This document shows, piece by piece, positions 3,001-51,092 of a stretch of DNA of 64,000 nucleotides (within the stretch, counting starts at the first letter, position 1; the number at the start of each line of letters is the position of its first letter). Location of the stretch: the NCBI GenBank assembly GCA_026168455.1, contig CM047426.1:3961501-4025500 (forward strand). The letters are read 5' to 3'. Made by a program: the position numbers and the translations under genes. The notes under the pieces were generated by a model. It had not been told where the DNA came from. It saw only the letters and a program-made list of their open reading frames with translations, and searched no databases. The stretch comes from Theocolax elegans (taxonomy: Eukaryota > Arthropoda > Insecta > Hymenoptera > Cerocephalidae).

Positions 3001-5235
3001 TTTCAATTTATCTGTATAAATAGAATTTTTTGCGACTATCGATTATCGTGTCAATATGATTGAACTATCGTTGTTTACTAAATTTTTATTAGTAATAAAA
3101 AACAGTTTTTTTTAAAGTATATTTTACTAATTCATATTTATTTATATTGCAATTTTTAATTCAATGTTTATAAACTATTTATGAATTAATAAAGATAGAT
3201 CCATGTAATTTGTATTTAAACTGTGCATTTTTGAATGAAACCGCGAATTTTTCAAAATAATTAATTTTTCCTCCACAACCATTCGTTATAAAATCGAAGT
3301 TTACTAGCACTTGAACATTTCAATCAATTACAAAAGAGCAAAACTATATCATTATATATAAAGTGAATAATGACTTTAATTTTTGGAGACGACATTTCCT
3401 TAAAAATAATTATAAAATATTACCATCGGTGTTAAATATTTTTTTACAATTATTGTTAAATATAAAGTTAATGTCTTTATATAAAGAAACTGATACTTTT
3501 TAATCAATAATAAAAAGGTTTTTTTTACGTTCTCATTAATTGTAATAATTTGTATGTATTTCCCATTTTTAAAATTAACTAACAATACAATTTAATTGTC
3601 TAAACGAAATGGCAATATCCACACACAAAAAATTTTAAAACGTATCTAAATCCGTCGTATCCACGATATAAACTTCACAATTAACTCATTCGACTGATAT
3701 TAATGAACGAGCAATGAAAAGCGCGTAAAATTGGCTACTAGTCATTCTTCCGTAAAACCCACAAACTTTGTACAATTAGAGGGGTGCTGTTTGTCGACCT
3801 CGATACCCATTATAAAAATAAAATTCGACATTATCATATTCTCTTATATAAATTTCGCAACTTTGTACAATAAACTAAATTTCGTTAGATAATTATAAAC
3901 CGATTAAAAGATTTCGCGAAGAGCACTATCTACTTTAATTTCGAAGGGAGATATAAAGAAAAATCTCGAGCACGTTTTCCTTCTTTTAAATTAAGAAATT
4001 CAAGTTAGAATGTCAAAGCGACAAGCTCAAAGTAAAGAATTTCGATTCAAAAGTTTTTTTTATAAAAAAAAGCTTATTAACTTGACTGATACAGTCGTGT
4101 TTACAGAAAAAAATTGCTTGTAAAATAAGAAAGTATCATTAGCTTCGTATCTCGTTTATCGATATACTGCCTATTAAAATTGACGTGATTTCAACAAATA
4201 TATATATCTTTTCGAAATTTTATAATTATACACTTTGTTATACGGTATTTCGAGTTTGAAAGATTTTTTCTTTATGGACGTAATTTTTAGTTGAAACGTA
4301 ACAAGCGCCAGTAATAATAGATTTAGTATTAGTCAAAAATACGATTAAACGAAATGTATGTTAAAATTCTTTAAAAAATTGTATTATTTTCTTTTATTAA
4401 TTATACAATCTTTAATAAAACGAAAATAAATTTTGCAATTGTTGCGGAAGAAAATACAATTTTGACATATATAGTCGGCAAAATATTAAATTGCGCTCCA
4501 TAAATAAGACACGACAGATGTAAATAAAAGTAAATTATTTATATATTAACATAAATATTTTATTTTTACTTTAAATATTTATTAATTAATATATAATAAT
4601 AACATTATATATTAACATAATTTATGTTATTACTTTATTTTATTATTTATTGTTTTAATTGTTTGTAATTTATTAAGGCAACTAAGTGAATTTCCATGTC
4701 TAAACATCGAAATAAAATATGTTTGATAAATAAATATGCTTTAAAAATCATTAATACGATGTAAAAGTTACATTATAGGGATCTACCTTGAAAAACTTAT
4801 AAATTATAAGTATAAATTATGAAATTAAAAATCTGAATATTAAATACATACAATGATGTAGATAAAGCTTATACAGCAAGATTTTTAGGTTTATTCAGGA
4901 TTAAAAAATTAGAAAAAAATTATTAGATGATATTCCAAACGAGTAGAAGAGCGTTATAGATTAGCGCCTTCATTTAAAATACACACATTAACTCATTTTT
5001 CATTCAATTTGCATATTTGTGTGAGTTAAGGTACATTGTCTAATGTGCAACAACTATGTGTGCGCTAAAAAAATTTAGAAAAAATGAAAATTAAAATCTA
5101 TATTTGAAAAATCAAGTGTTAAATCTGCAATCTGTACGGACTCCAGGAGGTGGCATACACAATGGTCACCGACCGAGTAGATAAAAATAATGATTACATT
5201 TATTTAAAAAAAAATGTAATAAATATCTTTTCAAA
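1..5235. other. AT-rich noncoding DNA, downstream side of the PKI exons
   Basis: I see only AT-rich sequence with homopolymer runs, short (TA)n tracts (for example near 915 and 1069-1080) and a local ttaacata repeat near 4540-4630. No convincing exon was found. A terminal PKI exon could be hidden here or beyond the left edge; the less AT-rich patches near 1840-1890, 3775-3815 and 5130-5165 gave no convincing acceptor plus PKI-like tail. Confidence 0.6.
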
Positions 5236-5422
5236 AATTATTAAAAATTATCTTTACAAAAATAATTTTATTCCAAAAATAAAGCATTTAGTTCGGAAAG
5301 ACCGATAATTATATATAAATATCTTTTCTTTTTTCGGTCGTTCGTTATGTAATTCCGTTAAAACTAAAAATACTACATTACGACTATATAAAATGAATAT
5401 ACGCAGAGAAATATCGACTAAC

Positions 5423-5680
5423 CAGTTGTGAGGGCTTCGAGTCTTTCGGGTAAATCGGATATGCCGGTCTCGGCATGCTGTCCGAGTATGTCCGGCATGG
5501 CGTTCCTACGTCCTGTCCGACCAGTCGACAGGAACTCCTGCGAGCCTTCGCCGTTGATGAAGCCCCCAGGCGTTACGGGCTCGGTGCTCCCGCTACTACC
5601 CGCCACTGCGACCTCACCTTTGCACCCGCTGGACTCACCACCAACTGACTCGGTATGGGACTCTTTTTGCATCCTCACGA
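5423..5680 (-). CDS. cAMP-dependent protein kinase inhibitor (PKI) coding exon, copy 2 (downstream copy)
   Basis: PKI proteins bind the catalytic subunit of PKA as a pseudosubstrate and also promote its nuclear export. Read on the minus strand, the exon starts after a good acceptor (tract of T residues, ctaataac branch-point-like sequence, then tgttgcag) and ends at ACTG|GTTAGT. It is 258 bp, entering and leaving in the same phase, so it is frame-neutral. ATG at 5672-5670 (A at -3) is a likely start if the upstream exon is noncoding. Counting from it: acidic/Gly/Ser-rich N-terminus (1-44), then EFLSTGRTGRRNAMPDIL (46-63) with Phe47, Arg52, Arg55, Arg56 and pseudosubstrate Ala58, matching vertebrate Phe10, Arg15, Arg18, Arg19 and Ala21. 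A Leu-spaced stretch DLPERLEAL (73-81) lies where PKI has its nuclear export signal. The C-terminal exon was not found and may lie outside the window. The N-terminal extension is longer than in vertebrate PKI. The opposite-strand ORF is a shadow. Confidence 0.88.
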
Positions 5681-5794
5681 CTGCAACACATCGTACAATA
5701 CATTTTACAAATGTTATTAGAATTGAAAAAAAAATTTTTTTTTGGTTATATACGGATACGTATATTTGCGTTGGTTAGTTCAAAAAGAGCTTAA

Positions 5795-6038
5795 CCCTTA
5801 ACTGTCATTTTCTCATAAAAGCGGAAAAGCTTCGTTTGCGTGGTTGTTATCTTTTTTTTCTCGGCAATTCATTAATGAAATTTGTCTTGAAATAAATCAC
5901 TTAGTTGTTTAGTAGAGACCTCAAAAAATTATGCAAAAAAATTTAGAACCAAAACGTTACAGACGTTAATATATGATGGGGTCTGATATATCCCCCTGTG
6001 ACACTTGTGTTATAATCTGGAAGTGTGACAGTTATGGG
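5795..6038. mobile_element. piggyBac-like MITE in unit A
   Basis: TTAA at 5791-5794 and 6039-6042 flank a 244-bp element with inverted ends CCCTTAACTGTCA and TGACAGTTATGGG. TTAA targets with CCC...GGG ends are the piggyBac pattern. No coding capacity. It lies in the intron just upstream of the PKI exon in the direction of transcription. Confidence 0.7.
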
Positions 6039-6865
6039 TTAAAATTAAAAAACGAAAAGAAAAATGTTTAGAGGTAGAGTATTGGTTTTTAAAAAATACT
6101 ATCGAGTACTTTTCATAGATTGAAATACACTACATAAAAAAAGAAGATACAGTTAGACTATTGGAAAAGTATATATTTTAAATAAAAATTTATCACATTT
6201 TTTTATTCATTGGATGTGTAACAAAACGCCAAACGCCAAACTATTTTGTTATTAAATAAATACATTGTTAGGTTTTTTTTTAAGTAGCGATATGGCTTAT
6301 AAAAAGAATGCCAGGTAACAGTATTTATTGGAGAGTATTTGTTTCTAACAATTAATTAAAAAATTAATATAAGTACAAATATTGTTTATTAAATCTTTTT
6401 CTGTTTTAGTTAATCTCATTTGTTTGTTGTATAATATTTAAAAAAAAAACCAACATTTTTTTAATTTGAGAAAAATCACATGATACTGTTGTCAAAGATT
6501 TTATAAAGTAAAGCAGATGCATTTTTTACTATTAAACTATTTGGAAATGATTTATAATAAAAAAGACACGACAAGAGTATTGATTAGTATCTATTTTTTT
6601 TTTCAAACATTTTTCATCAAATATTCACTTTAATATATACATTAGTATTTTTCATCAAACAAACATATTTCTTGCAGAAATTATTAAAAATTATCTTTAC
6701 AAAAATAATTTTATTCCAAAAATAAAGCATTTAATTCGGAAAGACCGATAATTATATATAAATATCTTTTCTTTTTTCGGTCGTTCGTTATGTAATTCCG
6801 TTAAAACTAAAAATACTACATTACGACTATATAAAATGAATATACGCAGAGAAATATCGACTAAC

Positions 6866-7123
6866 CAGTTGTGAGGGCTTCGAGTCTTTCGGGTAAATCG
6901 GATATGCCGGTCTCGGCATGCTGTCCGAGTATGTCCGGCATGGCGTTCCTACGTCCTGTCCGACCAGTCGACAGGAACTCCTGCGAGCCTTCGCCGTTGA
7001 TGAAGCCCCCAGGCGTTACGGGCTCGGTGCTCCCGCTACTACCCGCCACTGCGACCTCACCTTTGCACCCGCTGGACTCACCACCAACTGACTCGGTATG
7101 GGACTCTTTTTGCATCCTCACGA
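6866..7123 (-). CDS. cAMP-dependent protein kinase inhibitor (PKI) coding exon, copy 1 (upstream copy)
   Basis: This is the second copy of the PKI exon, 1443 bp upstream of the other in the direction of transcription. The exon, both splice sites and the branch-point-like sequence look identical to the copy at 5423-5680, including the Phe, Arg and Ala contact residues. The encoded 85 complete codons are the same. Both copies begin with two bases completing a codon and leave one base over, so splicing copy 1 to copy 2 would keep the frame and give a protein with two PKA pseudosubstrate segments. Using only one copy would give a normal inhibitor. What I see is the duplicated exon with intact splice sites; which isoforms are made is unknown. 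It could also be an assembly duplication of one locus, because the intron around the copies differs mostly by short indels. Confidence 0.85.
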
Positions 7124-7239
7124 CTGCAACACATCGTACAATACATTTTACAAATGTTATTAGAATTAAAAAAAAAATTTTTTTTTTTGGTTATACACGG
7201 ATACGTATATTTGCATTGGTTAGTTCAAAAAAAGCTTAA

Positions 7240-7504
7240 CCCTTAACTGTCATTTTCTTATAAAAGCGGAAAAGCTTCGTTTTGCGTGGTTGTTATCTTT
7301 TTTTTTCTCGGCAATTCATTAATGAAATTTGTCTTGAAATAAATCACTTAGTTGTTTAGTAGAGACCTCAAAAAATTATGCAAAAAAATTTAGAACCAAA
7401 AGTATTTGTTGGTAAAGCTTTTTTTACAGACGTTAAATATGATGGGGTCTGATATATCCCCCTGTGACACTTGTGTTATAATCTGGAAGTGTGACAGTTA
7501 TGGG
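7240..7504. mobile_element. piggyBac-like MITE in unit B
   Basis: Same element as at 5795-6038, flanked by TTAA at 7236-7239 and 7505-7508. It is 265 bp because of small insertions. It was evidently present before the tandem duplication and copied with it. Confidence 0.7.
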
Positions 7505-8644
7505 TTAAAATTAAAAAACGAAAAGAAAAATGTTTAGAGGTAGAGTATTGGTTTTTAAAAAATACTATCGAGTACTTTTCATAGATTGAAATACACTACA
7601 TAAAAAAAGAAGATACAGTTAGACTATTGGAAAAGTATATATTTTAAATAAAAATTTATCACATTTTTTTATTCATTGGATGTGTAACAAAACGCCAAAC
7701 GATTTTTGTTATTAAAAATAAATACATTGTTAGGTTTTATTTGTTAAGTAGCGATAGGGCTTATAAAAAAAAGAAAATGCCAGTAACAGTATTTATTGGA
7801 AGAGTATTTGTTTCTAAACAATTATTAAAAAATGTAAATATAAGTACAAATATGTGTTTATTAATACTTTTCTGTTTAGTTAATCTCATTTGTTTGTTGT
7901 ATAATATTTAAAAAAAACCAAACAATTTTTTTAATTTGAAGAAAAATGCACATGATAATGTTGTAAAAGATTTTATAAGTAAAAGCAGATGCAGTTTGAC
8001 TATTAAACTATTGGGGAAATGATTTATAAGAAGAAAAGACACGACAAGAGTATTGGATTAGTATCTATTTTTTTTTCAAACATTTTTCATCAAATATTCA
8101 CTTGTAGAATATATACATTAGTATTTTTCATCAAACAAACATTATTTCTTGCAGAAATTTAATTACTAAACGTACTTTCGGCACGTCAGTAAGGAATGCA
8201 AGTTTTCTACTAAGAAACTAGGAAAAACAGTGCAAGCTCATTTCTTCGCATTTATTAAAAATATTAAAAGCTTGTCATATAAGTATTTGTCACCTTCTAT
8301 TTTAAGCTTAGAATCGAGAGTCTTCATACTAAGGATTCATGCATAAACAGGTAAAAAAATATCATTAGACATATTAATTACCACAAGAAATTGCTAAACA
8401 TTACTTATTAGTCAATAAAAATAAATATGTTAAACTAAATTAATTCATTCACCTTTAACTATACATGGTCAATTAATTAGTTTGAATATAATTAATTGTT
8501 GTTTTAGTAATTAATTAAGTTACTCATTAACAACTAATTATTATTCAATTAATTATTCATTGTCCCTTTTTTCATTAAAATAAAATAATATAATTCATTA
8601 AAAAAATTAAACAATAGTGTAAACAACAACTAAATAATTTTTTT

Positions 8645-19036: not shown

Positions 19037-19084
19037 TTAAAAAAAAATATAAAGAATTATTAGCCAGGTTGCAAGGTAATACCT

Positions 19085-19232
19085 TGATGGGTACGTATCA
19101 GCTTCTGCCTTCGTTCGATTTTTGATTTTTGTACATTTTCTTTTCTGCACATCCTCGATTTGGCGGACACGGGGATGCCAACGGCGTTCCTCGAGATTTT
19201 CCGCTGCTTCACCTGCGGCCCTCGTTATCATT
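19085..19232. other. coding-like island, unassigned
   Basis: Both strands are open and balanced in base composition. The minus frame from the ATG at 19213-19211 reads MITRAAGEAAENLEERR and runs towards a CAAG|GTATTA donor-like site near 19078. A plus frame reads FLEIFRCFTCGPRYHC. I recognise neither. It may be an exon, a decayed transposon or conserved noncoding DNA. Confidence 0.3.
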
Positions 19233-20798: not shown

Positions 20799-20900
20799 TT
20801 GATAAACAGAGCACTAAGATCGCGAGTATTTAAAAGTAAGTAAGTGAGTGGTGAAATTACACTGTGAACGGTGCCAAGCACCGATTAAAGGTGAGTGAAT

Positions 20901-22361
20901 ATGGAAGGAAATGAAAAAATAACTATAAACACACAAAACTCAGAAAGTGCCACTGAAAAAACGATAAATCAAGTACAACAAAATACACAGAACCCTCAGC
21001 TAAGCAGACCACAGGAACAAGTAAACTACGCCAATGTAACGAAAAACCGATCATACCCTAAACGTGACCAAGCAATAGTAATCGATTCAGTCGAAGGAAG
21101 TACAATCAACGAATATGTAAGTCAATTAATAAAAATAATTCACCCGTCCGAAATGAGAAGCATCTCCAGAGTATCGAATAATAGAATATGTCTGTACCTG
21201 TCATCAAAAAAACTAGTTGATGAATTAATTGAAAATAAAAAGTACATTACGATTGCTAACAACCGACTTATAATTAGACCACTAATATCGCGAGCAAAAA
21301 GAATTATTTTATCAAATGTCTGGTCAGAAATTCCTAACGAAGAAATTGAAAATTTTTTTAACAAATTAAATATAAAAAGAGAATCTAGAATTACACACTT
21401 AAGAGCCGGAATTTCAATCCCTGGATTGACCCACCTAGAAAGTTTTAGAAGACAAGTCTATATAAGCCCCGAAGATGTAACAAAAATTCCGGAATCCTTT
21501 CGTATTACACATGATAATACCGCATATTGGATCTTCACATCAGGCGAAGCTTTGACATGCTTCATCTGCAAAAGTGAGGGTCATCTAGCCAAACAATGCC
21601 CAAACACAAACACTCAATTCCAAGAAGAATGTATCACGCAAACGGATGATAGCTACAATCAAATACAGACACCAACAACATCAAATAACCGAAATAATAA
21701 TAAATCTCCATTAAATTACACTCAACTATTACCGCTACCTACAGTAAACGAAAACAAGGAACCTTACAATAGCACATATGACCTAAGCAAAGTAAACCAA
21801 TTAAAATCTCGCGATATACCAAATAACATAACACAAATAAGTACACACACAGAGATGCAAAACTTTACTGAATTTTTATCACCTATGGAAGTATTAAATA
21901 ATTCAAATAAAAGAACACTTGAACAAGCAAACATCGACCCGTCACTAACGACTAGTGAACCTCAAATAGTAGAAACCGATTTCGAATTCAGCACCGAATC
22001 TAATATAGCCTCAACCGAAGAGCAAAGCGATGAAGAAACAATCAACGCAAAAAAATCAAAAAAGAAAAGGAAAGTAAAAAAAATGGAGGTAACAAACAAT
22101 ACAGATCTAGACCTTATGTTAAGTCCCGCAAAAAAATTATTTGCAGACAACGAGAACAATTATCCAATAAACTATGAAGATTTTAAAAATTTTATAGACA
22201 AAGCTCGATCCAATACACTGGCTGCCAAAATCGCGAAAGATCACGTCCAAGACACAAAAACTCTATCTAAAATAATGAGGGAAATATATCCCAATCTAAC
22301 AGAAAAAAGCATAAAAAATCAATTCACCAGAATCTTAAAAAAACTAGAAAAATTAGAATAA
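20901..22361 (+). CDS. LINE ORF1 protein (nucleic-acid-binding, gag-like)
   Basis: 486 aa from the ATG at 20901; an in-frame GTG six bases upstream is not a plausible start. ORF1 proteins coat LINE RNA and form the ribonucleoprotein for reverse transcription. The N-terminus (1-45) is Gln/Asn-rich. Residues about 55-200 alternate predicted strands and helices like the RRM-type folds of other ORF1 proteins. One CCHC zinc knuckle, CFICKSEGHLAKQC, lies at about 220-233; many relatives have two or three. The following segment to about 380 is low-complexity and polar. A basic run SKKKRKVKK near 385-393 looks like a classical nuclear localisation signal. The tail (about 420-486) is charged and helical. 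Only one knuckle is visible, so assignment to a named clade is uncertain. Confidence 0.85.
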   Translation: MEGNEKITINTQNSESATEKTINQVQQNTQNPQLSRPQEQVNYANVTKNRSYPKRDQAIVIDSVEGSTINEYVSQLIKIIHPSEMRSISRVSNNRICLYLSSKKLVDELIENKKYITIANNRLIIRPLISRAKRIILSNVWSEIPNEEIENFFNKLNIKRESRITHLRAGISIPGLTHLESFRRQVYISPEDVTKIPESFRITHDNTAYWIFTSGEALTCFICKSEGHLAKQCPNTNTQFQEECITQTDDSYNQIQTPTTSNNRNNNKSPLNYTQLLPLPTVNENKEPYNSTYDLSKVNQLKSRDIPNNITQISTHTEMQNFTEFLSPMEVLNNSNKRTLEQANIDPSLTTSEPQIVETDFEFSTESNIASTEEQSDEETINAKKSKKKRKVKKMEVTNNTDLDLMLSPAKKLFADNENNYPINYEDFKNFIDKARSNTLAAKIAKDHVQDTKTLSKIMREIYPNLTEKSIKNQFTRILKKLEKLE

Positions 22362-22377
22362 ACAAATATAACAGGAA

Positions 22378-25300
22378 ATGCCAACCTCAATCCTCCAATG
22401 GAATATAAATGGTTTCAAACCCCGCAGAATAAATATAAATAGAATTATCAAATTAAAAAGTCCAATGTTATTATGCCTACAAGAAACCAATTTCAAAGAA
22501 GATTATTATGCAAAAATTAAAGGATATACACAAATAATAAAAAATAGGAGAAACTGTACTAATGCAAGCGGAGGAATAGCTACATACATCAAAGAAAACA
22601 TCAACTACAGTGAAATAAATCTAAATACAAAATTAGAAGCAAATGCAATTATCTGTTACTTACCTGAAAAAGTATGTATATGCAATCTATATCTGCCCAA
22701 TAGTTATGACTTCACGCTAACTGAATTAGAAGATTTAATCAAACAGTTACCCACACCACTACTACTCATAGGCGATTTTAACAGCCACAACTCTTTATGG
22801 GGAAGCAAAACCACCAACTCAAGAGGAAAAAAAATAGAAGATCTATTACTAAACAACGACAACTTAGTACTACTTAACAATAACAATATGACCCACTTTA
22901 ATCAATACAATGGAGAAGAGAGCGCAATAGATCTCTCTATAGCTTCTGCATCCCTCAGAGAAAAAATCGAATGGGAAGTATGTGACGATTTATTTGACAG
23001 TGACCACTATCCTATACTTATTAATTTCGAAGACGAAGAAAAAACAAATATTAAAGAAAAAATTTGGAACATAAAAAAAGCAGATTGGAGCTTATACAGA
23101 CAAAAAATAGAAGTAAATATAAAAAAATTAGCGACAACCAACAATTTTAACAAAGAAAAAAACATCAACGATCTCATAACTGCCCTGACATCAGCCATAA
23201 CGAAAAGTGCAGATGAATCAATACCAATTATTAAAGAGAAATCCCAAAAAAAGCAAGTTCCCTGGTGGAACAAACAATGTGAAGAGGCGTTAAAAAAATC
23301 AAAGAAAGCATTTAACAAATATAAAAAAAACAAAACTACGGAAAATAAAATAGAAAAAAATAAAACAAGAGCTATCTGCAGACAAATTTTTAAAGAAAGT
23401 GAAAGAAAAGCTTGGATAGAATTTACCCACTCGCTTAACCAAAACACTCCAAGTAGCATTATATACAATAAAATAAACCGAATAAATGGAAAAAAGAAAA
23501 CTAACAAAATAATAAATCTTTTAAACGATAATCAAGAAATAATAACAAATGACAGAGAAATAGCAAACGAGATGGCCAAAACATTTGCACAAAATTCCAG
23601 CGACAAAAACTTCAATGAAAAATTTTTAAAATATAAAAAGGAATTCCTAAAAATATCGCCAGAAATCTACACTCCTATTCAAGGAAATTATAACGATGAA
23701 ATTACAAAAGAAGAGATTGTTTATACACTAAAACTATGTAAAAACTCCAGTCCGGGTCCTGACAAAATTCCCAATGCTTTACTTAAAGAATTACCGCCCG
23801 AAGGAATTGACTACTTAAAAAACATATTTAATATAATATGGACCGAAGGAATCTTTCCAGACGCATGGAGAGAAGCGATTATCATCCCCATACCGAAACC
23901 GGGAAAGGATAGAAGCAGAGCACAAAACTACAGACCCATAGCTTTAACTTGCACTATGTGCAAACTAATGGAGAAAATAATCAATAAAAGATTAAAATCC
24001 CACCTTGAAGACAACAATTTAATATGCCCCCAACAGAATGGATTTAGAGAAAACAGATCCACCTTAGACCACCTGACATCTTTAGAAAACTACATATGCA
24101 ACGCTAAAATAAAAAATCTCCACACCATCCTAGTAAGTTTAGATCTTGAAAAGGCATATGAAATGGTTTGGAAGCAAAGAATAGTTCAATTATTATATAA
24201 TCAAAATATCCAAGGCAGAATTCTAAAATTTATCGACAATTTCCTCCAAGGTAGAACAATTAAAGTTAAAGCAAATGGTACACTCTCAAACAAAACAACA
24301 ATAGAAAATGGAATCCCTCAAGGGTCAGTTTTAAGTGTGACACTATTCCTTATCGCAATTAATGACGTAACCAATAATATTAAATCACCAGTCAAATGCA
24401 ACATCTTCGCTGATGATATAACAATATATTGTAGTGGAAAAAACTTAATTAATACTAGCAAAATCATTCAAAACACCCTAGATAAACTACACGATTGGAC
24501 TAATAAAACAGGTTTCAAATTTTCAGCAGCAAAAACACAATACATAATAATATTCAATGGCCACAAAAAACGAAACAATCAAACTCTCAAATTAGATAAT
24601 ACAAAAATCACAGAAGTTAAAGAACTTAAAATACTGGGGATGATCTTTGACAAAAAGCTAACTTGGCAAAAACATATTCAAACAATCAAACACGAATGTT
24701 ACAAAAAACTCAACATAATTAAAACTCTAGCTGCTAATAACTGGGGAGCCGACAAGAAGATCCTGACAAACACATACAAAGCCTTTATATTACCCAAACT
24801 AGATTATGGAGCCATCCTCTACGATTCAAGCCCCCATAAAAACAAATTAGAAGTAATACAGAACACTGGACTAAGAATTGCACTAGGAGCTTACCGTACA
24901 AGCCCAATCTATAGTATATTGGCCGAAACTGGAGTACTACCACTGCAAACTAGAAGAGAAAAGCTAATAATTAACTACGCATGTAAAATAACCTCAATAC
25001 CAGACAATCCAGTATACAAATTCATTTTCAGCAAAGAATATCTAGAACACTACAATAAAAACCCCTACACTCCAAAACCGGCCAACATAAGACTATATAC
25101 ATATAAGAAAAATATAAATATTAATATACCGGAAATTATCAAAAGAAAAAAGGCTCCACCACCAACTCTTGTAATTAAAATAACAAAAGACATAAATAAC
25201 AACATTAATACAATCTATCAAACGTCCTTTGTACACTCCAGAGACGGAAAATCATACAGTATAATAAAAACTAACGAACAAATTAAAACTTATGAATCTC

Positions 25301-25998
25301 CACCAGAAATTAATACACTGACAGGCACTCTCCTAACTATACTCATAACAATAGAATCAATTAAATTAGAAAATGCTGGAAATTATTTAATAACAACTAA
25401 CTCAATAACCTCATATCAAGAAATTAGCAATATCTACTCAAAAAAATCAATAACACAAACTATCCAGAAAGAAATCACAGACCTAAGGAAAAAACAAATC
25501 ATCATAAATGTTACACACAAACAAGAAGAAATAACAGCAAATAACATAGATCTTGCAAAACACTTACCACTACCAATAGGGATTCCACACGAAAACGTAC
25601 AAAAAATAATAAACAGAGTAATAATACAAAGATGGAATGAAGAATGGAAAAAGTCAAAAAAAACATCATTACACAACGTTAGAGACTGCATTACGCAAAA
25701 AAATCCATGTGATAAATTAGAAAGATCAAATCAAGTTATCCTAAGTAGAATTAGAATTGGACATACACATCTCACACACCAACATCTCCTTACTAAATCC
25801 GAACCTAACAAGTGTACAAAGTGCAATGTTATGCTAACAATTAAACATATACTATTTGAGTGTCAAGAATATGAAGAAATAAGAAGGAAATACCAAATAA
25901 ATGATCTTAAAAAGTGTTTTGAAAATAAAAAAAATACATGCTTATTAATTAACTTTATTAAAGATATAAACAGAAAAAATATATGTAAAATATACTAA
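22378..25998 (+). CDS. LINE ORF2: APE endonuclease, reverse transcriptase, RNase H-like region
   Basis: 1206 aa, starting 16 bp after the ORF1 stop and in another frame, so reinitiation is likely. The endonuclease (about 1-220) has Asn9/Asn11, Glu36, Tyr105, GDFNSHNSLWGS (132-143), Asp185 and the SDH motif at 208-210; it would nick target DNA. The reverse transcriptase (about 455-745) has NYRPIAL near 516, motif A with Asp589 (LDLEKAYE), IPQGSVLSVTLF from 646, and catalytic FADD at 677-680. The usual Pro after QGSVLS is Val654. Residues about 940-1055 align in order with the RNase H domain of I-type elements, but the TDG-type Asp956 is the only acidic site kept: the Glu position is Thr984 and the TDS motif is TNS (1007-1009). 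CTKCNVMLTIKHILFEC at 1146-1162 is the usual C-terminal zinc motif. No stops or frameshifts. Confidence 0.92.
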   Translation: MPTSILQWNINGFKPRRININRIIKLKSPMLLCLQETNFKEDYYAKIKGYTQIIKNRRNCTNASGGIATYIKENINYSEINLNTKLEANAIICYLPEKVCICNLYLPNSYDFTLTELEDLIKQLPTPLLLIGDFNSHNSLWGSKTTNSRGKKIEDLLLNNDNLVLLNNNNMTHFNQYNGEESAIDLSIASASLREKIEWEVCDDLFDSDHYPILINFEDEEKTNIKEKIWNIKKADWSLYRQKIEVNIKKLATTNNFNKEKNINDLITALTSAITKSADESIPIIKEKSQKKQVPWWNKQCEEALKKSKKAFNKYKKNKTTENKIEKNKTRAICRQIFKESERKAWIEFTHSLNQNTPSSIIYNKINRINGKKKTNKIINLLNDNQEIITNDREIANEMAKTFAQNSSDKNFNEKFLKYKKEFLKISPEIYTPIQGNYNDEITKEEIVYTLKLCKNSSPGPDKIPNALLKELPPEGIDYLKNIFNIIWTEGIFPDAWREAIIIPIPKPGKDRSRAQNYRPIALTCTMCKLMEKIINKRLKSHLEDNNLICPQQNGFRENRSTLDHLTSLENYICNAKIKNLHTILVSLDLEKAYEMVWKQRIVQLLYNQNIQGRILKFIDNFLQGRTIKVKANGTLSNKTTIENGIPQGSVLSVTLFLIAINDVTNNIKSPVKCNIFADDITIYCSGKNLINTSKIIQNTLDKLHDWTNKTGFKFSAAKTQYIIIFNGHKKRNNQTLKLDNTKITEVKELKILGMIFDKKLTWQKHIQTIKHECYKKLNIIKTLAANNWGADKKILTNTYKAFILPKLDYGAILYDSSPHKNKLEVIQNTGLRIALGAYRTSPIYSILAETGVLPLQTRREKLIINYACKITSIPDNPVYKFIFSKEYLEHYNKNPYTPKPANIRLYTYKKNININIPEIIKRKKAPPPTLVIKITKDINNNINTIYQTSFVHSRDGKSYSIIKTNEQIKTYESPPEINTLTGTLLTILITIESIKLENAGNYLITTNSITSYQEISNIYSKKSITQTIQKEITDLRKKQIIINVTHKQEEITANNIDLAKHLPLPIGIPHENVQKIINRVIIQRWNEEWKKSKKTSLHNVRDCITQKNPCDKLERSNQVILSRIRIGHTHLTHQHLLTKSEPNKCTKCNVMLTIKHILFECQEYEEIRRKYQINDLKKCFENKKNTCLLINFIKDINRKNICKIY

Positions 25999-30342: not shown

Positions 30343-32875
30343 TAATAAAATAAAAAAATAAAATATTTATTTAAAAAAATTTAGTAAACAATTGTGCAAA
30401 TTGTAGATTTAAAAATCTGAAATTATTCTGATACTCTTTAAAAACCAAATATACATATAGATCAAACAAAAAATTAATTTACGAAAAAAAATGTTTCCCT
30501 ATCTTTTGTATACAGTAAAAATTCGTTTATAAATATTTAATAAACACTATACTGGTTGGTAATTTTGTATCAAAAAATAATTTTAAAAAGCAGGAAAATT
30601 TCGGTTAAATACAAATACTAGAGCTTGTTAAAAATTTGTTTAAAAATATATACTTTATTTCAAAAAACAAATTTAATAATATTCGGTAATTTTGAGTTGA
30701 AAAATTCGTAGTACAAAAGTTCTGTACAAATTGTAAATTTATAAATCTAACAAGATTTTGATATCTTAAAAAACTAAATATGAATATATAATTTAAAAAA
30801 CAGATGCGCTTTTCCACTTTTTAAAAATAAAACAATTCAGTATAATTGTAAGTTAAAAGCGGTATGATGAATAATAAAATGTATAAAGCCTAGTTAAAAA
30901 AATTAATTAAAAAAAATTGCTTAATTGTTACTTTATACATTTAAAAAAATATAAAAAAAACATTACTTTCAACCCACTGTATAAAAAAATCAACGCATCT
31001 TAATAGAAAAAATATTTTTAAAAAATCACAAATAAATACGTAACCTTTCCTTCCAAATCAATGCACCACCCCATATTAAAATTCAATTTATCATAGCAAT
31101 ATTAACCAGTCATCCTGAATTCATTAACTATACTTCACGTATATTCTTCAAGAGTAATGCTAACTTCATCAAACCCATCGCAGCAAACGAACAATAAGAT
31201 ACATTATTTTCTTTTTCATTCCACACAATGTACACAATAACTAAAGTGAAAATTAAACGCATTTCCAATTTTCATATATCATCCAACAAATAGCACGAGT
31301 TCGTCTATACCAAAAAACGAAAAAACCAATATGCACTTTAATCTCGAGTTAATTAACCCGTAACGATCAATAAATTACGCACTATATATCGTTAAATTTA
31401 TATATGCATATATACTGATAATTAATCGGATACAATACGTTCCCAGAAAAAAAAAGAATAAGGATGGAAAGAATCGTATCTCTCTTTTAAAATAAAAATT
31501 TTCATTTTACACTCAACAACACAAATATCTCTCGTCGAATATTTACATCCTATTATCAATTTTCAGAATATATTAAAAGTAATAATGATTATACTCTTCG
31601 CAATAAGCGCGCGCTTGATAAAAGAAAGTTTAACCAATGATTTAACGTCGATGCGCAAAACTTTTCCAAAACTTTATTTTCACAACCGGGGGGTAATAAA
31701 AGTTTACAGAACGATCTCTCGAGTTAGATGCGAAAAATTGAATTTCAAAATGTGTGTATTTTCCCTTTTTTCTCCCACGAAAGAAAATTATAGATATTTG
31801 TTGTTGAAGAAAATGTATAAGAAATCTAGAATGTTTACGTAATTTAAGTTTTTTTTTACTCTGGGTAATGTATAATTGTTGACTGTAATAAAATAATTTA
31901 ATTTGATAGTTATTAAAGAAAAGAAATCTTCGCTGATCGCGTCGTTGTCAAAATGATTTTTAAGTTGTGTATCTTAATTTAATTTCGAAGATAAATATTA
32001 TCACTATTTGATAATTTATCCGTAACGAATGAGGGCACTGCTGATGTATGAAATAATAATTGACAAGGAGAAACATTTTGTAGTAGAAAATTACAATTAT
32101 GGAGCGTATACTATAAGATGTGATAAATTATACTATATTTTATCAGTGGAAAATTTAGTGCAAATTAAAGAAAAATTTGCGTTAAAAACTTCTACTAATA
32201 TTTTTTAGTAAGTTTGGGATATATCTGGGAAGATGAATTATTATACTATATTTTATCATAAAAATTTGTAATAAAAATGACTACATATTCTATCGTAAAA
32301 ACTTAGTTTAAACATATTAATTTTTGTTATAAAATGTTGTTTAAAAATTTTTTTAACTACCCCTTACAGAGTTTTAAATGGTTATTGCCTAATTTTCACG
32401 AATCAGCTGATTCTTAACTGATGAATTAGCTAAAAAATCATATTTAGGTCATTTCCTAGAAAAATAAATATAATATCATTATATTTATTGTTTTTAAAAA
32501 ATTTAATAACAAAATGTTATGAACAATATTTTCACACGCATATGTTTTTTGGCCAGATTCGGACATTAAAGAATAAAAAGATTTAATATCTTGTTAAATA
32601 ATAAAAAATCATCTTTCAGTAACAACAAATTGTAAATTTTGTGTTAAAAAATATTCATTGCGTTTACGTCTTTGTTAATAGTTCACAATAATGATATACA
32701 TCCGATTTTAGAAAAAAAATTAACCAAATGTAACCTAAACATTAAATATTTTCAACATCTTAACTAGAAAAAGTTAGGTTATTTTCTACTATAGATAATA
32801 GTAACTTATACAAAAAATGTCACTTTATAAATTTTCAAAAAGCTACCAAAATTTTATCAAAAAATATTCAAATAA
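30343..32875. repeat. 3.4-kb local duplication, left copy (A1+B1)
   Basis: Segment A1 (about 30343-30958) and segment B1 (about 30959-32875) recur to the right as A4 and B2 with an offset of about 3395-3400 bp. Small indels and single-base differences separate the copies. The open stretch at 31585-31842 has no recognisable domain and lies in B1. Confidence 0.85.
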
Positions 32876-34343
32876 GTAATTTTAAAAAGCAGGAAAATTT
32901 CGGTTAAATACAAATACTAGAGCTTGTTAAAAATTTGTTTAAAAATATAACTTTATTTAAAAAACAAATTTAATAATATTCGGTAATTTTGAGTTGAAAA
33001 ATTCGTAGTACAAAAGTTCTGTACAAATTGTAAATTTATAAATCTAACAAGATTTTGATATCTTAAAAAACTAAATATAATATATAATTTAAAAAACAGA
33101 TGTTTTTCCACTTTTTAAAAATAAAACAATTCAGTATAATTGTAAGTTAAAAGCGGTATGATGAATAATAAAATGTATAAAGCCTAGTTAAAAAATTAAT
33201 TAAAAAAAATTGCTTAACTGTTACTTTATACATTTAAAAAAATAAAAAAAATAAAATATTTATTTACTTATAATTATTCTAATACTCTTTAAAAACCAAA
33301 TATACATATAGATCAAACAAAAAATTAATTTACGAAAAAAAATGTTTCCCTATCTTTTATATACAGTAAAAATTCGTTTATAAATATTTAATAAACACTA
33401 TACTGGTTGGTAATTTTGTATCAAAAATAATTTTAAAAAGCAGGAAAATTTCGGTTAAATACAAATACTAGAGCTTGTTAAAAATTTGTTTAAAAATATA
33501 TACTTTATTCAAAAAACAAATTTAATAATATTCGGTAATTTTGAGTTGAAAAATTCGTAGTACAAAAGTTCTGTACAAATTGTAAATTTATAAATCTAAC
33601 AAGATTTTGATATCTTAAAAAACTAAATATGAATATATAATTTAAAAAACAGATGTTTTTCCACTTTTTAAAAATAAAACATTCAGTATAATTGTAAGTT
33701 AAAAGCGGTATGATGAATAATAAAATGTATAAAGCCTAGTTAAAAAATTAATTAAAAAAAATTGCTTAATTGTTACTTTATACATTTAAAAAAATAAAAA
33801 AAATAAAATATTTATTTACTTATAATTATTCTAATACTCTTTAAAAACCAAATATACATATAGATCAAACAAAAAATTAATTTACGAAAAAAAATGTTTC
33901 CCTATCTTTTATACAGTAAAAATTCGTTTATAAATATTTAATAAACACTATACTGGTTGGTAATTTTGTATCAAAAATAATTTTAAAAAGCAGGAAAATT
34001 TCGGTTTAAATACAAATACTAGAGCTTGTTAAAAATTTGTTTAAAAATATATACTTTATATCAAAAAACAAATTTAATAATATTCGGTAATTTTGAGTTG
34101 AAAATTCGTAGTACAAAAGTTCTGTACAAATTGTAAATTTATAAATCTAACAAGATTTTGATATCTTAAAAAACTAAATATAAATATATAATTTAAAAAA
34201 CAGATGTTTTTCCACTTTTTAAAAATAAAACAATTCAGTATAATTGTAAGTTAAAAGCGGTATGATGAATAATAAAATGGTATAAAGCCTAATTAAAAAA
34301 ATAATTAAAAAAATTGCTTAATTGTTACTTTATACATTTAAAA
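32876..34343. repeat. 550-bp tandem repeats (A2-A4)
   Basis: caggaaaatttcggtt occurs with its surroundings at 32890, 33441 and 33991 (spacing 551 and 550 bp), and once more at 30591 in the left copy. A2 is truncated at its left end, where it abuts B1. Confidence 0.88.
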
Positions 34344-36240
34344 AATATAAAAAAACATTACTTTCAACCCACTGTATAAAAAAATCAACGCATCTTAATA
34401 GAAAAAATATTTTTAAAAAATCACAAATAAATACGTAACCTTTCCTTCCTAAATCAATGCACCACCCCATATTAAAATTCAATTTATCATAGCAATATTA
34501 ACCAGTCATCCTGAATTCATTAACTATACTTCACGTATATTCTTCAAGAGTAATGCTAACTTCATCAAACCCATCGCAGCAAACGAACAATAAGATACAT
34601 TATTTTCTTTTTCATTCCACACAATGTACACAATAACTAAAGTGAAAATTAAACGCATTTCCAATTTTCATATATCATCCAACAAATAGCACGAGTTCGT
34701 CTATACCAAAAAACGAAAAAAACCAATATGCACTTTAATCTCGAGTTAATTAACCCGTAACGATCAATAAATTACGCACTATATATCGTTAAATTTATAT
34801 ATGCATATATACTGATAATTAATCGGATACAATACGTTCCCAGAAAAAAAAGAATAAGATGGAAAGAATCGTATCTCTCTTTTAAAATAAAAATTTTCAT
34901 TTTACACTCAACAACACAAATATCTCTCGTCGAATATTTACATCCTATTATCAATTTTCAGAATATATTAAAAGTAATAATGATTATACTCTTCGCAATA
35001 AGCGCGCGCTTGATAAAAGAAAGTTTAACCAATGATTTAACGTCGATGCGCAAAACTTTTCCAAAACTTTATTTTCACAACCGGGGGGTAATAAAAGTTT
35101 ACAGAACGATCTCTCGAGTTAGATGCGAAAAATTGAATTTCAAAATGTGTGTATTTTCCCTTTTTTCTCCCACGAAAGAAAATTATAGATACTTTGTTGT
35201 TGAAGAAAATGTATAAGAAATCTAGAATGTTTACGTAATTTAAGTTTTTTTTTACTCTGGGTAATGTATAATTGTTGACTGTAATAGAATAATTTAATTT
35301 GATAGTTATTAAAGAAAAGAAATCTTCGCTGATCGCGTCGTTGTCAAAATGATTTTTAAGTTGTGTATCTTAATTTAATTTCGAAGATAAATATTATCAC
35401 TATTTGATAATTTATCCGTAACGAATGAGGGCACTGCTGATGTATGAAATAATAATTGACAAGGAGAAACATTTTGTAGTAGAAAATTACAATTATGGAG
35501 CGTATACTATAAGATGTGATAAATTATACTATATTTTATCATGGAAAATTTAGTGCAAATTAAAGAAAAATTTGCGTTAAAAACTTCTACTAATATTTTT
35601 TAGTAAGTTTGGGATATATCTGGGAAGATGAATTATTATACTATATTTTATCATAAAAATTTGTAATAAAAATGACTACATATTCTATCGTAAAAACTTA
35701 GTTTAAACTTATTAATTTTTATTATAAAATGTTGTTTAAAAATTTTTTTAACTACCCCTTACGAGTTTTAAATGGTTATTGCCTAATTTTCACGAAATCA
35801 GCTGATTCTTAACTGATGAATTAGCTAAAAATCATATTTAGTCATTTCATACAAAAATAAATATAATATCATTATATTTATTATGTTTAAAAAATTTAAT
35901 AACAAAATGTTATGAACAATATTTTGAACAAGCATATGTTTTTATGCCAGATTCGTACATTAAGAATGAAAGATTTAATATTTTGTTGAATAATAAAAAT
36001 CATCTTTTCAGTTACAACAAATTATAAATTTAGTGTTAAAAAATATTTCAATGCGTTACGCTTCTAGTTCACATTATTAATGATATACATCCGATTTTAG
36101 AAAAAAAATTAACCAAATGTAACCTAAACATTAAATATTTTCAACATCTTAACTAGAAAGGTTAGTTTATTTTCTATTATAGATAATAGTAACTTATACA
36201 AAAAATTTCACTTTATAAATTTTCCAAAGCTACCAAAATT
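34344..36240. repeat. 3.4-kb local duplication, right copy (B2)
   Basis: Matches B1 from acattactttcaaccc through aagctaccaaaattt. The open stretch at 34980-35216 corresponds to 31585-31842, but an indel shifts its end, which argues against it being a gene. Confidence 0.85.
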
Positions 36241-36470
36241 TTTATCAAAAAATATTTCAAAATTATAGTAATTTTTGTCAAAAAAAAGTCTTTGAAAAAT
36301 ATTAATTTTCATTAAGTACATAATTTGTCTGTATAAATTTTCCAAAACTATGAAAATCTCTTACAACAGTTTCCAAAACTATAGTAATTTTCACGAAAAA
36401 ATATATAAATAATTATAAACATAAATAAATAAATAAATAGTCAGTATAAATCAACGTAACGTCTGTGTTT

Positions 36471-43020: not shown

Positions 43021-43055
43021 ACCCAAAAGAGAGATGGGTGACCCTTAAAACGTCC

Positions 43056-43096
<41 letters not shown>

Positions 43097-43361
43097 AGCT
43101 GTTAATTGGATTATCTCGGCCTATAAACGTAAAAGACATAACCGATCGTCTCTACACACAGGTGTCCCAAGTTCCATATACACATCGTATTAACTCTTCA
43201 TACGTATATATCTCTCAATCCCTCATATATATATATACATACACACATCTTCCGCTTTATTATTATTCGCTTCGATAGTCGACCTTGTTCGTTGCATATA
43301 AACGCGCTTCGCGATCTCATGACTCGCGTCGTCCTTGCTCCACACTGAACTTTAATTTCAC

Positions 43362-43398
<37 letters not shown>

Positions 43399-43827
43399 GG
43401 TGGCTTTGCACACACACATATAAATACAATGTCCTAGGTTCAATCGATTTTCGAGTTACTTCAACTTTCGAGGGTTAACACTCAATTTTTACACAATGTG
43501 TGCTTCACGTTCAATCGACAATGTCTATTTTTCGTCATGACGAATGGTTTTGCAACTTATTTTTCCATCTCATTATAGGAATTGGGAAGTTTCATCATGT
43601 TTCGAGTTTTTTTATTTTTTACGTCTTATTATATATGTATATGTCTGTACAAACGAAATTATGTCAAATGTGGTAATGTATCACATATATGCGTATTTCA
43701 GATTTTCCACTTCAACCCCTACTTTTCATCCTCTTGAGAATTGCAAAATGTGAGCTAAGTTCAATAATGAATTATGCGACCCAAATGATCCACAGATACA
43801 AATTATTACCTGCTTTTTAAAATAATG

Positions 43828-43890
43828 ATAGTGATAAGTACGAATCAATGCTCAGAACACATACCGAAGTCACTTCGTACTTATCACTAT
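43828..43890. repeat. hairpin with perfect 17-bp stem (left copy)
   Basis: atagtgataagtacgaa (43828-43844) and ttcgtacttatcactat (43874-43890) are exactly complementary with a 29-nt loop. Pairing continues outwards past a one-base bulge (atg/cat). Confidence 0.8.
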
Positions 43891-45729
43891 TCATCGAAAA
43901 TACTGACTTTTGGATCAGGTAAGCAATATGTAATTAATCATTACATCAATAGCTATGGCGCTCAACTCTGATTTTGTGTGGTAAAAACTCTATTTTCTTT
44001 AAATGTCCATAATTATTGTCGAATATGAACTCAGCCTATCTGACGGCAACGCTATATCTGCTCGCAAATTTTCAGGTGGCGGATTTGTGAAGCTATTAGT
44101 ACGGACTGCCCTTAAATACTAAAATTGAGAATGAAATCGGCAATCTAAAAAATTCTTGGAAACAAATTTTGATTGTGATTTAGTTTACATCACATTTGGC
44201 ATGAAATTTGATAAGAGCCTATAATTTAATCAGTTTAACAATAACATTATATTATTTTATTCATATTTCAACTTTGAAGAAAAGTATAAGGAGCTTACTC
44301 GAAACGTAGGTTAGAAAATTTTCACGATTGTGGTTGAGATTTTCAGTGAGGGTTTAGAGTTGTTGGTGGGGATAATACTTTAAGTAGTGTGGCTTTTTAG
44401 GAGCAGATTTTTCAAGAATGTAAGTTTTTATTTTATAATTTATATTTATTAATTAATAGATTTTTTTTCAAGCCAGCCATATAAATCTACCAGGGGTGAT
44501 TATAATTCTGGGCGGTGCCAGAAATATTTTTTCCATTTTTCGTAAGTTGGTCCGATTTATTAGTAACTTTTTAGGTTTTGGGTGTTTTTAATATATTTGG
44601 CAATAAGTGTTTAATTTTAATTGTGTTTGTAAACACCGAAATAGATGGAATTGTAACTGAAATTTATAGCAATCGACAGAAGAATTGATTATTAATTATA
44701 TTTTTCTGTTAATTTTAATCTTCTTCAATTTCATTAGAAATATAATAGTATTAAATTTTAATGTAGTAAATTTAGTATTAAATATAATAAATTTCACTTT
44801 AAAAAATTCAATTTCAAAAGTAATTTCTTAAGTATAAATTGTAACTTGTAAAAAGTGTATGCTAGAGATATTTTTAACCTCAAACGTGAAAGGGCTAAGA
44901 CCTTGATTAAAACGTTTATGTAATAAATTATATTTCCAAATGTGCAATTGTCAAAAGTTTCAAAATATCGATAAAATAGGATACAGATCTCGACAATACA
45001 AGTCTCGAGAAAATATCTTTTTTTTAGTCTTCGACTTTGTGTGCACAATCAATGATTACTGCTACACGCATGACAAATAAAAATTATCCTCTTCAAGCAT
45101 TGATTAACCGCATGAAGATTCATTATTTGTGTTAGTGTGTGTGCTCGGGAGAACGATTGGAGAAAGAGAAACATTGTTTTTCGATATTATATTTGCATAT
45201 ATTGCTGATGTATATCGATTAAAATTAAATAACAATATCGAATAAAACGAATAAACATTTTAATAATTTTTCCATGAGAAGAAGAGAAAGAGAGAGGAGA
45301 TGCGTCAATTATCTTTTAATTAATAATCAGTGAACCGTTTGCGAAATGTACATTGATTTTGACTGACAGTGTTGTTGCACGCTGTATTTATTAATGCACG
45401 TATGCATATCCCCTGTTGAAATATACGATCATTCCTTTTTTCTCTCTCGATTATTTTCAGTCGAAATGTATTTTTTAATTTTATTTTACCGGAATAAAAT
45501 TACAAACATTATGTGAATATGCATGATTATATTGATGTAAACTGTCAGGAGAGATAAAATAAATTTACGATTGGCGTTTACACAATAAAATGAAAAAAAA
45601 TGGGTCTAAAATTGTTCATCCTTGGAATGCCTAAAAGTTAGATTAGACTAATGAACAAATAGATATTGAGCGTAATATTATTAATATAATTTCTAGAACG
45701 TGGAAATTTTGGAATACATCGAAAAAAAG

Positions 45730-46038
45730 TTTATAAAAAATTATAAAAAATTAGATAAAAAGTTCTAAACGTCATACCCTTTGGCATGTTTTAACAGTAT
45801 ATTCCAATTTTTTCAGATTTTTAAATCTGTGATTTAATTTTCATTTTTACATTGAAAATTGATACCTTTTTAGACCAATAATTACCGCCTGCAAATTTAT
45901 TCAATTATTACTAACAAATTTATTTTTTCTTAAAAAATCAAAACGTCATATGAATTTTTTCAGATTTTTAATTCAATATCTCCAATATAATTCTTATGTT
46001 GAAAGGTGCAGATCCCTGTAATTTGGGTCCGACCCCCG
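45730..46038 (-). mobile_element. 380-bp TTAA MITE family, truncated copy at 45.7 kb
   Basis: In reverse orientation: cgggggtcggacccaaatta follows TTAA (46039-46042). The distal end is cut off near 45730. Confidence 0.65.
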
Positions 46039-46062
46039 TTAAGAATTAACCGATTGAGGGTA

Positions 46063-46756
46063 ATAGGCCAGTCGAATTAAGGAAAAAAGTACCGTTTTGC
46101 GGAAAAATTACAAAGTCGAAAAAAAAAATATGGCGTCATAGATAACCATGTGCTGATGCTAGAAAAAAAAAAGATGTAAAATCCGCTGTACGCTAAGCTG
46201 TAAAAAAATTCCCAAAGTTGCAAAATTCAGTTTTTTGCTTAGCTATTAACAACTATTAACGGGATGGCAAATAAAAAATATACGTTAAATATGCTTCAAG
46301 AAGATCTACAAAGTAGCGTTGGTTAGATCAAGATCGGACTATTAGTTAACTTGTAAAAAATTAAAAACCCTTAAAATTGACGCTTTCTAAAATCCTTCAT
46401 AACTCGATGAAAAATGAATATATTGATAAGTTATTGAAGTGAGCAATACTACATAATAGTAGAATGAATTTCCCTTTAACACGTTTCTGTGCGATAAATA
46501 GATTACGATTAATTTAATTGTTAATTAAAAAAAGCGTTTTTTCGCTTGCAAATAATGATAAAACGAGCAGTTGCACAGTGCTATCCTTGGGCGGGAATTA
46601 AACTTCAATACTTGTATTTTAGTGTACTAAACTTATTAAATTCATTTTTATTGTTAAACACCTAAAATAAGCGTTTAAAAACAATGTTAATTTTGCAACA
46701 TCTTCAAATCATTCCCACGAGCGCAAAAGAAAGTTTAAAAAAATCGGACCCACGGC
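46063..46756. other. noncoding DNA between the duplication and the long inverted repeat
   Basis: AT-rich, not present beside the right duplicate; origin unknown. Confidence 0.4.
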
Positions 46757-48112
46757 ATTCGATTACTACTATTTTTTTACGTTTTTTAGAGCTGGATTTG
46801 TTAATAAATGTTTATTAGGTGCCGAGATACATTTTTTTTTTCAAAAAATCACAACTCGGAATCTAGTTAACATTAAGAGACGAAACCAGTCCCATTAATC
46901 GCAGCGAAAGTCATACTTTGTAAAGCAATTGTTTAATTAATTATTGCCAATGTGGTTTACGTAAACGATTGAGTTGAAGTAAACTAACTTTATTGCGCGT
47001 AAGCGAGAGCGTCTTTACGCGGAGTGGGGGAACGCATTTAGAAAAGGACAGACGATTTCAGATTCTCGTATTCGCCGCGCAACGAAAAATTGTTTCAAGC
47101 GTTCAAATTTGATTAAGTTGGTATATCTCGGTAACTAATTAATATTTTTTGACCATTCTTTTTTAATTCGTATGTACTAATAAAAATAAATATTAATACC
47201 AATACAATTTTTACAATTACCTGATAGAAAACGTCGAATTTACAAATTCATAATTTTGTAATATTGCGGTACCGATATTTATGTATTAAAAATTACTTTT
47301 CATAAATTTTACTTAATGTTATGTTAAGTGTACGCTTCCTGCAAAGTAACTGTACACAATGTATTTAATTGTATTTTAATGTATATAATAAATTTTACAT
47401 TACTTTCTATAATTATACTTCCTTTTACGGCAAAATATCTATACGTATAATTACAATAAAAATTTAAGTATTATGTTATATTAAGTACATTTATTTATTT
47501 TTAATGTATAATAGTCAAGTGTAATCACAATCGCCACCTTGAATTAACATAACATTAAGTAAAATTTATGAAAAGTAATTTTTAATACATAAATATCGGT
47601 ACCGCAATATTACAAAATTATGAATTTGTAAATTCGACGTTTTCTATCAGGTAATTGTAAAAATTGTATTGGTATTAATATTTATTTTTATTAGTACATA
47701 CGAATTAAAAAAAGAATGGTCAAAAAATATTAATTAGTTACCGAGATATACCACTTAATCAAATTTGAACGCTGAAACAATTTTTCGGTTGCGCGCGAAT
47801 ACGAGAATCTGAAATCGTCTGTCCTTTTCTAAATGCGTTCACCCACTCCGCGTAAAGACGCTCTCGCTTACGCGCAATAAAGTTAGTTTACTTCAACTCA
47901 ATCGTTTACGTAAACCACATTGGCAATAATTAATTAAACAATTGCTTACAAAGTATGACTTTCGCTGCGATTAATGGGACTGAGGTTTCGTCTCTTAATG
48001 TTAACTAGATTCCGAGTTGTGATTTTTTGAAAAAAAAAAATGTATCTCGGCACCTAATAAACATTTATTAACAATCCAGCTCTAAAACGTAAAAAATAGT
48101 AGTAGCGAATCG
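46757..48112. repeat. long inverted repeat, about 570-bp arms
   Basis: Left arm 46757-47327 and right arm 47544-48112 are near-identical reverse complements with a 216-bp spacer (47328-47543). For example taactttattgcgcgtaagc near 46986 recurs inverted at about 47866. Only scattered substitutions and indels separate the arms. No coding capacity seen. It may be a foldback transposon or a hairpin RNA source. Confidence 0.88.
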
Positions 48113-48920
48113 ATTTAAATTTGCCGTCGAGCTCACCCAAAAGAGAGATGGGTGACCCTTAAAACGTCCCGGCTATATATATATCTAAACCCAGCTGTTA
48201 ATTGGATTATCTCGGCCTATAAACGTAAAAGACATAACCGATCGTCTCTACACACAGGTGTCCCAAGTTCCCCTATACACATCGTATTAACTCTTCATAC
48301 GTATATATCTCTCAATCCCTCATATATATATACATACACACATCTTCCGCTTTATTATTATTCGCTTCGATAGTCGACCTTGTTCGTTGCATATAAACGC
48401 GCTTCGCGATCTCATGACTCGCGTCGTCCTTGCTCCACACTGAACTTTAATTTCACTACCTCTCTCTCTCTCTCTCTCTCTCTCTCGTAGGTGGCTTTGC
48501 ACACACACCTATAAATACAATGTCCTAGGTTCAATCGATTTTTCGAGTTACTTCAACTTTCGAGGGTTAACACTCAATTTTTACACAATGTGTGCTTCAC
48601 GTTCAATCGACAATGTCTATTTTTCGTCATGACGAATGGTTTTTGCAACTTATTTTTCCATCTCATTATAGGAATTGGGAAGTTTCATCATGTTTCGAGT
48701 TTTTTTATTTATTACGTCTTATATCTATGTATATGTCTGTACAAACGAAATTATGTCAAATGTGGTAATGTATCACATATATGCGTATTTCAGATTTTCC
48801 ACTTCAACCCCCTACTTTTCATCCTCTTGAGAATTGCAAAATGTGAGCTAAGTTCAATAATGAATTATGCGACCCAAATGATCCACAGATACAAATTATT
48901 ACCTGCTTTTTAAAATAATG

Positions 48921-48983
48921 ATAGTGATAAGTACGAATCAATGCTCAGAACACATACCGAAGTCACTTCGTACTTATCACTAT
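48921..48983. repeat. hairpin with perfect 17-bp stem (right copy)
   Basis: Same stem and loop as at 43828-43890, without change: arms 48921-48937 and 48967-48983. Confidence 0.8.
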
Positions 48984-50759: not shown

Positions 50760-51063
50760 TATAAAAAATTATAAAAAATTAGATAAAAAGTTCTAAACGT
50801 CAATACCCTTTGGCATGTTTTAACAGTATATTCAATTTTTTCAGATTTTTAAATCTGTGATTTACTTTTCATTTTTAACATTGAAAATTGATACCTTTTT
50901 AGACAATAATTACCGCCTGCAAATTTATTCATTATTACTAACAAATTTATTTTTTTCTTAAAAATCAAAACGTCATATGAATTTTTTCAGATTTTAATTC
51001 CATATCTCCAATTAATTCTTATGTTTGAAAGGTGCGATCCCTGTAATTTGGGTCCGACCCCCG
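50760..51063 (-). mobile_element. 380-bp TTAA MITE family, truncated copy at 50.8 kb
   Basis: Duplicate of the copy at 45730-46038, carried within the 3-kb duplication; TTAA at 51064-51067. Confidence 0.65.
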
Positions 51064-51092
51064 TTAAGAATTAACCGATTGGATTGAGGGTT

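Follow-up and report, generated by a model that had tools for sequence, protein, structure and literature searches.

In the genome assembly of the chalcid wasp Theocolax elegans, the exon that encodes the pseudosubstrate of the PKA inhibitor PKI is present twice on the minus strand, and the two copies are identical. Judging from the sequence, we lean slightly to the view that this duplication is real DNA, whether fixed in the sequenced colony or segregating there. To the fuller reading, in which a recent local duplication of the PKI exon, fixed or segregating, would be expressed with both copies included and would give a two-headed inhibitor as the default, we assign an even chance. The features are as follows, with coordinates counted in the window, that is, the whole 64-kb stretch that was analysed (C2:3961501-4025500).

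5423-5680, minus strand: copy A of the PKI pseudosubstrate exon (258 nt, phase 1-1), the downstream one in transcription
6866-7123, minus strand: copy B of the PKI pseudosubstrate exon (258 nt, with the same sequence as copy A), the upstream one in transcription
5681-6865, minus strand: putative intron of 1185 nt separating copies B and A, if both are used
5229-6671 (the match reaching 6682), no strand assigned: tandem repeat unit, copy 1
6672-8159, no strand assigned: tandem repeat unit, copy 2, with the junction at about 6672-6680 and a 5-bp homology, AAATT
7702-8158, no strand assigned: tail of copy 2, with many small changes against 6236-6671
19083-19212, minus strand: coding exon of this gene upstream of the PKI exons, VKQRKI...RTHQ/G, donor phase 1 (short-peptide BLAST, E 1.6e-4)

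The repeat around the PKI exon runs head-to-tail with a period of about 1.45 kb, and the longest identical stretch between its units, 433 bp (5292-5724 against 6735-7167), spans the exon and its flanks. Because the exon copies are part of this repeat, their likeness is far beyond chance. As a preliminary description of this DNA had claimed, both copies carry the pseudosubstrate GRTGRRNA, and each has an acceptor TTGCAG, a branch-like CTAAT motif 36-40 nt upstream and a donor CTG/GTTAGT (slashes mark splice boundaries). The Pfam PKI model finds each of them well above its cut-off of 25 bits (50 and 50.2 bits, E 3.8e-13 and 3.2e-13, one value per exon copy), and in a PDB comparison the PKI alpha chains 3wyg_D and 1cmk_I align over the pseudosubstrate with a best E of 0.0012. 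The pseudosubstrate is of the PKI(5-24) type: EFLSTGRTGRRNAMPDIL aligns with DFIASGRTGRRNAIHDIL, having an F upstream, GRTGRRNA and then a hydrophobic residue, and these are the positions which we take to fill the corresponding roles in PKI(5-24). Two matches of the exon DNA occur in the assembly of 658 Mb, both at this locus (2/2 candidates scored). The donor carries an in-frame TAG, and therefore an intron-retaining message would stop just past the PKI core. Rfam and tRNA scans of the 64-kb window gave no match, and viral contigs scanned with the PKI protein gave no relative.

To what kind of gene does the exon belong? Its sequence marks it as an ordinary chalcid-wasp PKI gene, transcribed from the minus strand. 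Several wasp and sawfly relatives have a basic N-terminal segment (beginning with MVKQ... in some of them) that runs into ...RMLSQ, and the upstream exon matches this segment. The one base left by the donor of the upstream exon, together with TC of the PKI exon, makes V, which matches the sawfly Cephus (P0007). On the other side, a candidate C-terminal exon at C2:3944834-3944904, about 17 kb left of the window, reads DVPAGTSGGRSQTEPTPTQHHAG and then a stop; its match is weak (E 0.011), and its phase-1 acceptor fits. Since the upstream and the likely C-terminal exons both fit in phase, the PKI exon is symmetric (1-1), and with a phase-1 donor upstream and a phase-1 acceptor downstream, tandem inclusion of copy B and copy A would stay in frame. 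Splicing of copy B to copy A, from the donor at 6866 to the acceptor at 5680, would give the junction ACTG/TCGTGAGG. This symmetry and the in-frame tandem splicing that it would allow, both read from the flanking exons, go beyond the preliminary description.

How could a two-headed inhibitor come about? The whole phase 1-1 exon may have been copied, along with its splice signals, in a local duplication that spans about 1.45 kb and shows short homology where its units join, and this duplication would be recent, and fixed or segregating within the sequenced colony. Inclusion of both exons would be the likeliest default because they are identical, have the same splice sites and would be separated by an intron of 1185 nt; in exon duplications that cause disease, both copies are usually included. 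If both are spliced in, the product would be an in-frame inhibitor of about 239 residues, counting a Met, with two PKA-inhibiting heads whose pseudosubstrates stand 86 residues apart, and each head would occupy one PKA catalytic subunit, as expected from the family. If one copy is skipped, an ordinary protein of about 153 residues would be made. The sequence shows the two exons, their identity, the flanking exons with their phases, and a single head in the relatives retrieved; we infer a duplication in real DNA, the splicing-in of both exons, and the holding of one PKA catalytic subunit by each head. That the wasp actually makes a natural double-headed PKI, with about 239 residues and places for two PKA catalytic subunits, which would be the first such protein, is a tentative and rather doubtful proposal as judged from the gene.

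A doubled pseudosubstrate had been described beforehand as unusual for the family, and the comparison bears this out. All of the 155 retrieved relatives have exactly one motif of the GR.GRR.A type and no internal repeat in self-BLAST. They come from two protein searches (56 and 114 matches), which cover proteins of 0.55-1.75 times the query length, with a joint 215-residue query added for longer ones. From 156 proteins, the window's own upstream exon was dropped, so that 155 different relatives of 56-285 residues were counted; those with names are mostly from insects, with some from fishes. The motif was counted with a wide pattern, and a narrower one misses 16 of the relatives. Such uniformity also favours another explanation, namely that the assembler placed two pooled haplotypes, or a poorly corrected stretch of reads, in tandem, and that the gene really has one pseudosubstrate exon. 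The chance of such a false duplication is considerable, although it stays somewhat below even.

The origin of the assembly gives this explanation further support. According to the excerpted text of the genome report (PMC10033727), DNA of about 150 pooled male pupae was sequenced as PacBio Sequel reads, which were treated by Falcon correction, assembled by wtdbg 1.2.8, and followed by SMRTlink error correction and Pilon polishing. With pooled haploid males, PacBio reads and wtdbg, haplotypes could therefore end up in tandem. Of three older vertebrate assemblies, 4-16% was affected by false duplications, as given in the excerpts of PMC9516828. The same genome report gives a scaffold N50 of 88.81 Mb with 91.9% of the sequence in seven chromosomes, 1.1% BUSCO duplicates, and a k-mer size estimate of 752.6 Mb, larger than the published assembly of 662.73 Mb (PMC10033727, in part); the few BUSCO duplicates and an assembly below the k-mer size argue against wholesale false duplication. 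At the locus itself, two further observations stand against a false duplication: the window contains 0 Ns, so that no assembly gap separates the copies, and the exon DNA is matched nowhere else in the assembly.

Differences between the two repeat units bear on both sides. When the units are compared with gap costs favouring indels, they differ by 15 substitutions and 40 indels. These counts depend on the alignment, since BLAST gives either 30 mismatches with 28 gap openings or 21 with 41, and MAFFT gives 59 with 21, including some flank. As far as position 6235, the differences comprise six transitions, each isolated, edge substitutions at 5231 and at 5234, and six indel events, of which one spans 21 bases. 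The six isolated substitutions of this clean part are transitions without exception (6/6) in both alignments, unlike random error, and this counts for a real duplication; the part before 6236 has the look of genuine divergence between two molecules of DNA, whether paralogues or haplotypes. The tail of about 440 bp from 6236, on the other hand, resembles long-read error left uncorrected in one of the copies, perhaps copy 2, and is a point for a false duplication. Under indel-favouring costs the tail holds 34 indels and 7 transversions (five T to G and two C to A), while MAFFT finds about 42 substitutions and 16 indels. The former alignment needs 41 events and the latter about 58, so the former is more economical, and it is there that the error-likeness of the tail is seen, less so in the MAFFT alignment. 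A base-context model gives the tail of copy 2 a slightly lower score, which weakly favours copy 1 as the cleaner one, with a difference within simulated noise. A third genomic copy that could arbitrate was not found, the matches of the tail in the assembly being the two copies only. Of the tandemly duplicated exon proposed in the preliminary description, the copies and their splice signals stand in the sequence, while its standing as an established feature is not supported, given the identity of the exon copies, the error-like tail and the pooled PacBio assembly.

Do other local repeats of this genome help to distinguish the two explanations? Outside the window 250 kb were sampled, which makes 314 kb when the window is added. 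Of the 20 stretches of 10 kb, eight adjoin the window and twelve lie at chosen positions within the initial 4 Mb of C1, C2 and C3; a further 10 stretches of 5 kb are at positions drawn at random. Near-identical local repeats are common in this sample. Long head-to-tail parallels to the PKI repeat are L016 (period 2079) and L021 (period 872), and two shorter head-to-tail repeats of period 400 come from one repeat family. The repeats at 30421-36275 and 43021-51081 were rejected as tandem duplications of the same sort, because their flanks suggest a nested array for the former and separate insertions for the latter; separate insertions are likewise suggested for another pair, some 30 kb to the left of the window. 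L016 and L021 therefore stay as the good parallels.

The duplication of 2.1 kb in L016 (839-5011) holds, as we read the sequence, a short frame with a signal-peptide-like start. At 30421-36275 there are nested direct repeats of about 2.5 kb, whose start segment of 0.4-0.5 kb occurs about four times with 96-98% likeness. The near-identical 3-kb pair at 43021-46056 and 48135-51081 has different flanks and probably represents two insertions of one element; under indel-favouring gap costs, A to C accounts for 9 of its 16 substitutions, an error-like bias. At 46757-48110 lies an inverted repeat whose arms, each about 570 bp long, enclose a loop of 216 bp. A non-LTR retroelement occupies 20895-25998 on the plus strand, with an ORF1 of 488 aa bearing a CCHC knuckle and an ORF2 of 1208 aa for endonuclease and reverse transcriptase.

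Young tandem copies in the sample are rich in indels (2 substitutions and 21 indels in L016, 2 and 4 in L021), whereas some older pairs show about two substitutions per indel (84 to 39 in L026, 29 to 13 in the outer pair of L016), and this contrast favours a false duplication. Summed over the sample, direct pairs have 302 substitutions and 356 indels and inverted pairs 50 and 50, and the window's own inverted pair has 2 and 12. Since some inverted pairs are indel-rich too, the excess of indels is not limited to tandem copies. Polishing would leave errors alike in real and in false duplications. Junction homology, computed for the PKI repeat, L016 and L021, points the other way. Under random breakpoints, the 5 bp of the PKI repeat have a P of 0.016, and the exact 13 bp found both in L016 and in L021 have a P of at most 1.8e-4 and at most 6e-5, respectively. 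Such short homology is a mark of tandem duplication between short direct repeats and is unexpected from random joins of contigs, and thus it speaks for real events and against a false duplication.

An exon-duplication control counts on the same side with little power: inspection by eye of 45 chaperonin (PF00118) and 34 tRNA-synthetase (PF00133) matches revealed 0 tandem exon copies, where about one is expected because the three long head-to-tail units make up about 1.4% of the sample. Outside the window, the bacterial-looking contigs C834 and C232 carry six of these tRNA-synthetase matches; five of the six contain internal TGA and are free of TAA and TAG, and the sixth has none of the three stops inside. 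The pattern is as in a bacterium reading TGA as tryptophan, perhaps a Mollicutes-like associate.

It is improbable that the duplication is real but keeps the protein one-headed through the use of one copy at a time, as in alternative or mutually exclusive exon pairs. Duplicated exons that are used alternatively are known, for example from U2AF1 in the excerpts of PMC5224494 and PMC6821156, but nothing seen here forces exclusion, with an intron of 1185 nt and a symmetric exon. Whereas a mutually exclusive pair is expected to consist of copies that differ, the copies here are identical, so that a choice between them gives no new protein.

What would follow if the recent local duplication, with both exons included, is real and expressed? 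The wasp protein would stand alone among the 156 compared as a PKI that bears two inhibitory heads, and the dose or the valency of an inhibitor would have been altered through a single in-frame exon duplication. If the duplication segregates in the colony, a direct comparison of wasps with and without it would be possible. If it is false, it makes a useful warning that an exon may be perfect by sequence and that reads alone can tell.

A literature search on insect PKI, PKI evolution and PKI with two pseudosubstrates, made with limited terms, found no doubled PKI. Compared with the PKI family (PF02827), the wasp gene is alike in that each copy is above the Pfam cut-off and its phases agree with the joined sequence of the relatives from wasps and sawflies; it is unlike in that the T. 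elegans assembly has the exon twice, against one pseudosubstrate in each of the relatives, a single pseudosubstrate being usual for the family though it does not define it. Near-identical copies, a long-read assembly and a mixed sample are shared with the false assembly duplications in the excerpts of PMC9516828, while the PKI copies differ from these in having no gap between them and a short homology at the junction. The duplicated exons of U2AF1, as far as the excerpts of PMC5224494 and PMC6821156 go, are likewise neighbours within one gene; their alternative use gives two different isoforms, unlike the identical copies of the wasp PKI. A likeness at the protein level is Inka1, which in the excerpted text of PMC4674680 is a single inhibitor protein that carries a kinase-inhibiting motif twice. 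Inka1 inhibits PAK4, a different kinase, and belongs to a different family; peptides of both its boxes have been assayed, whereas the wasp PKI copies are identical and are known from the sequence of the gene.
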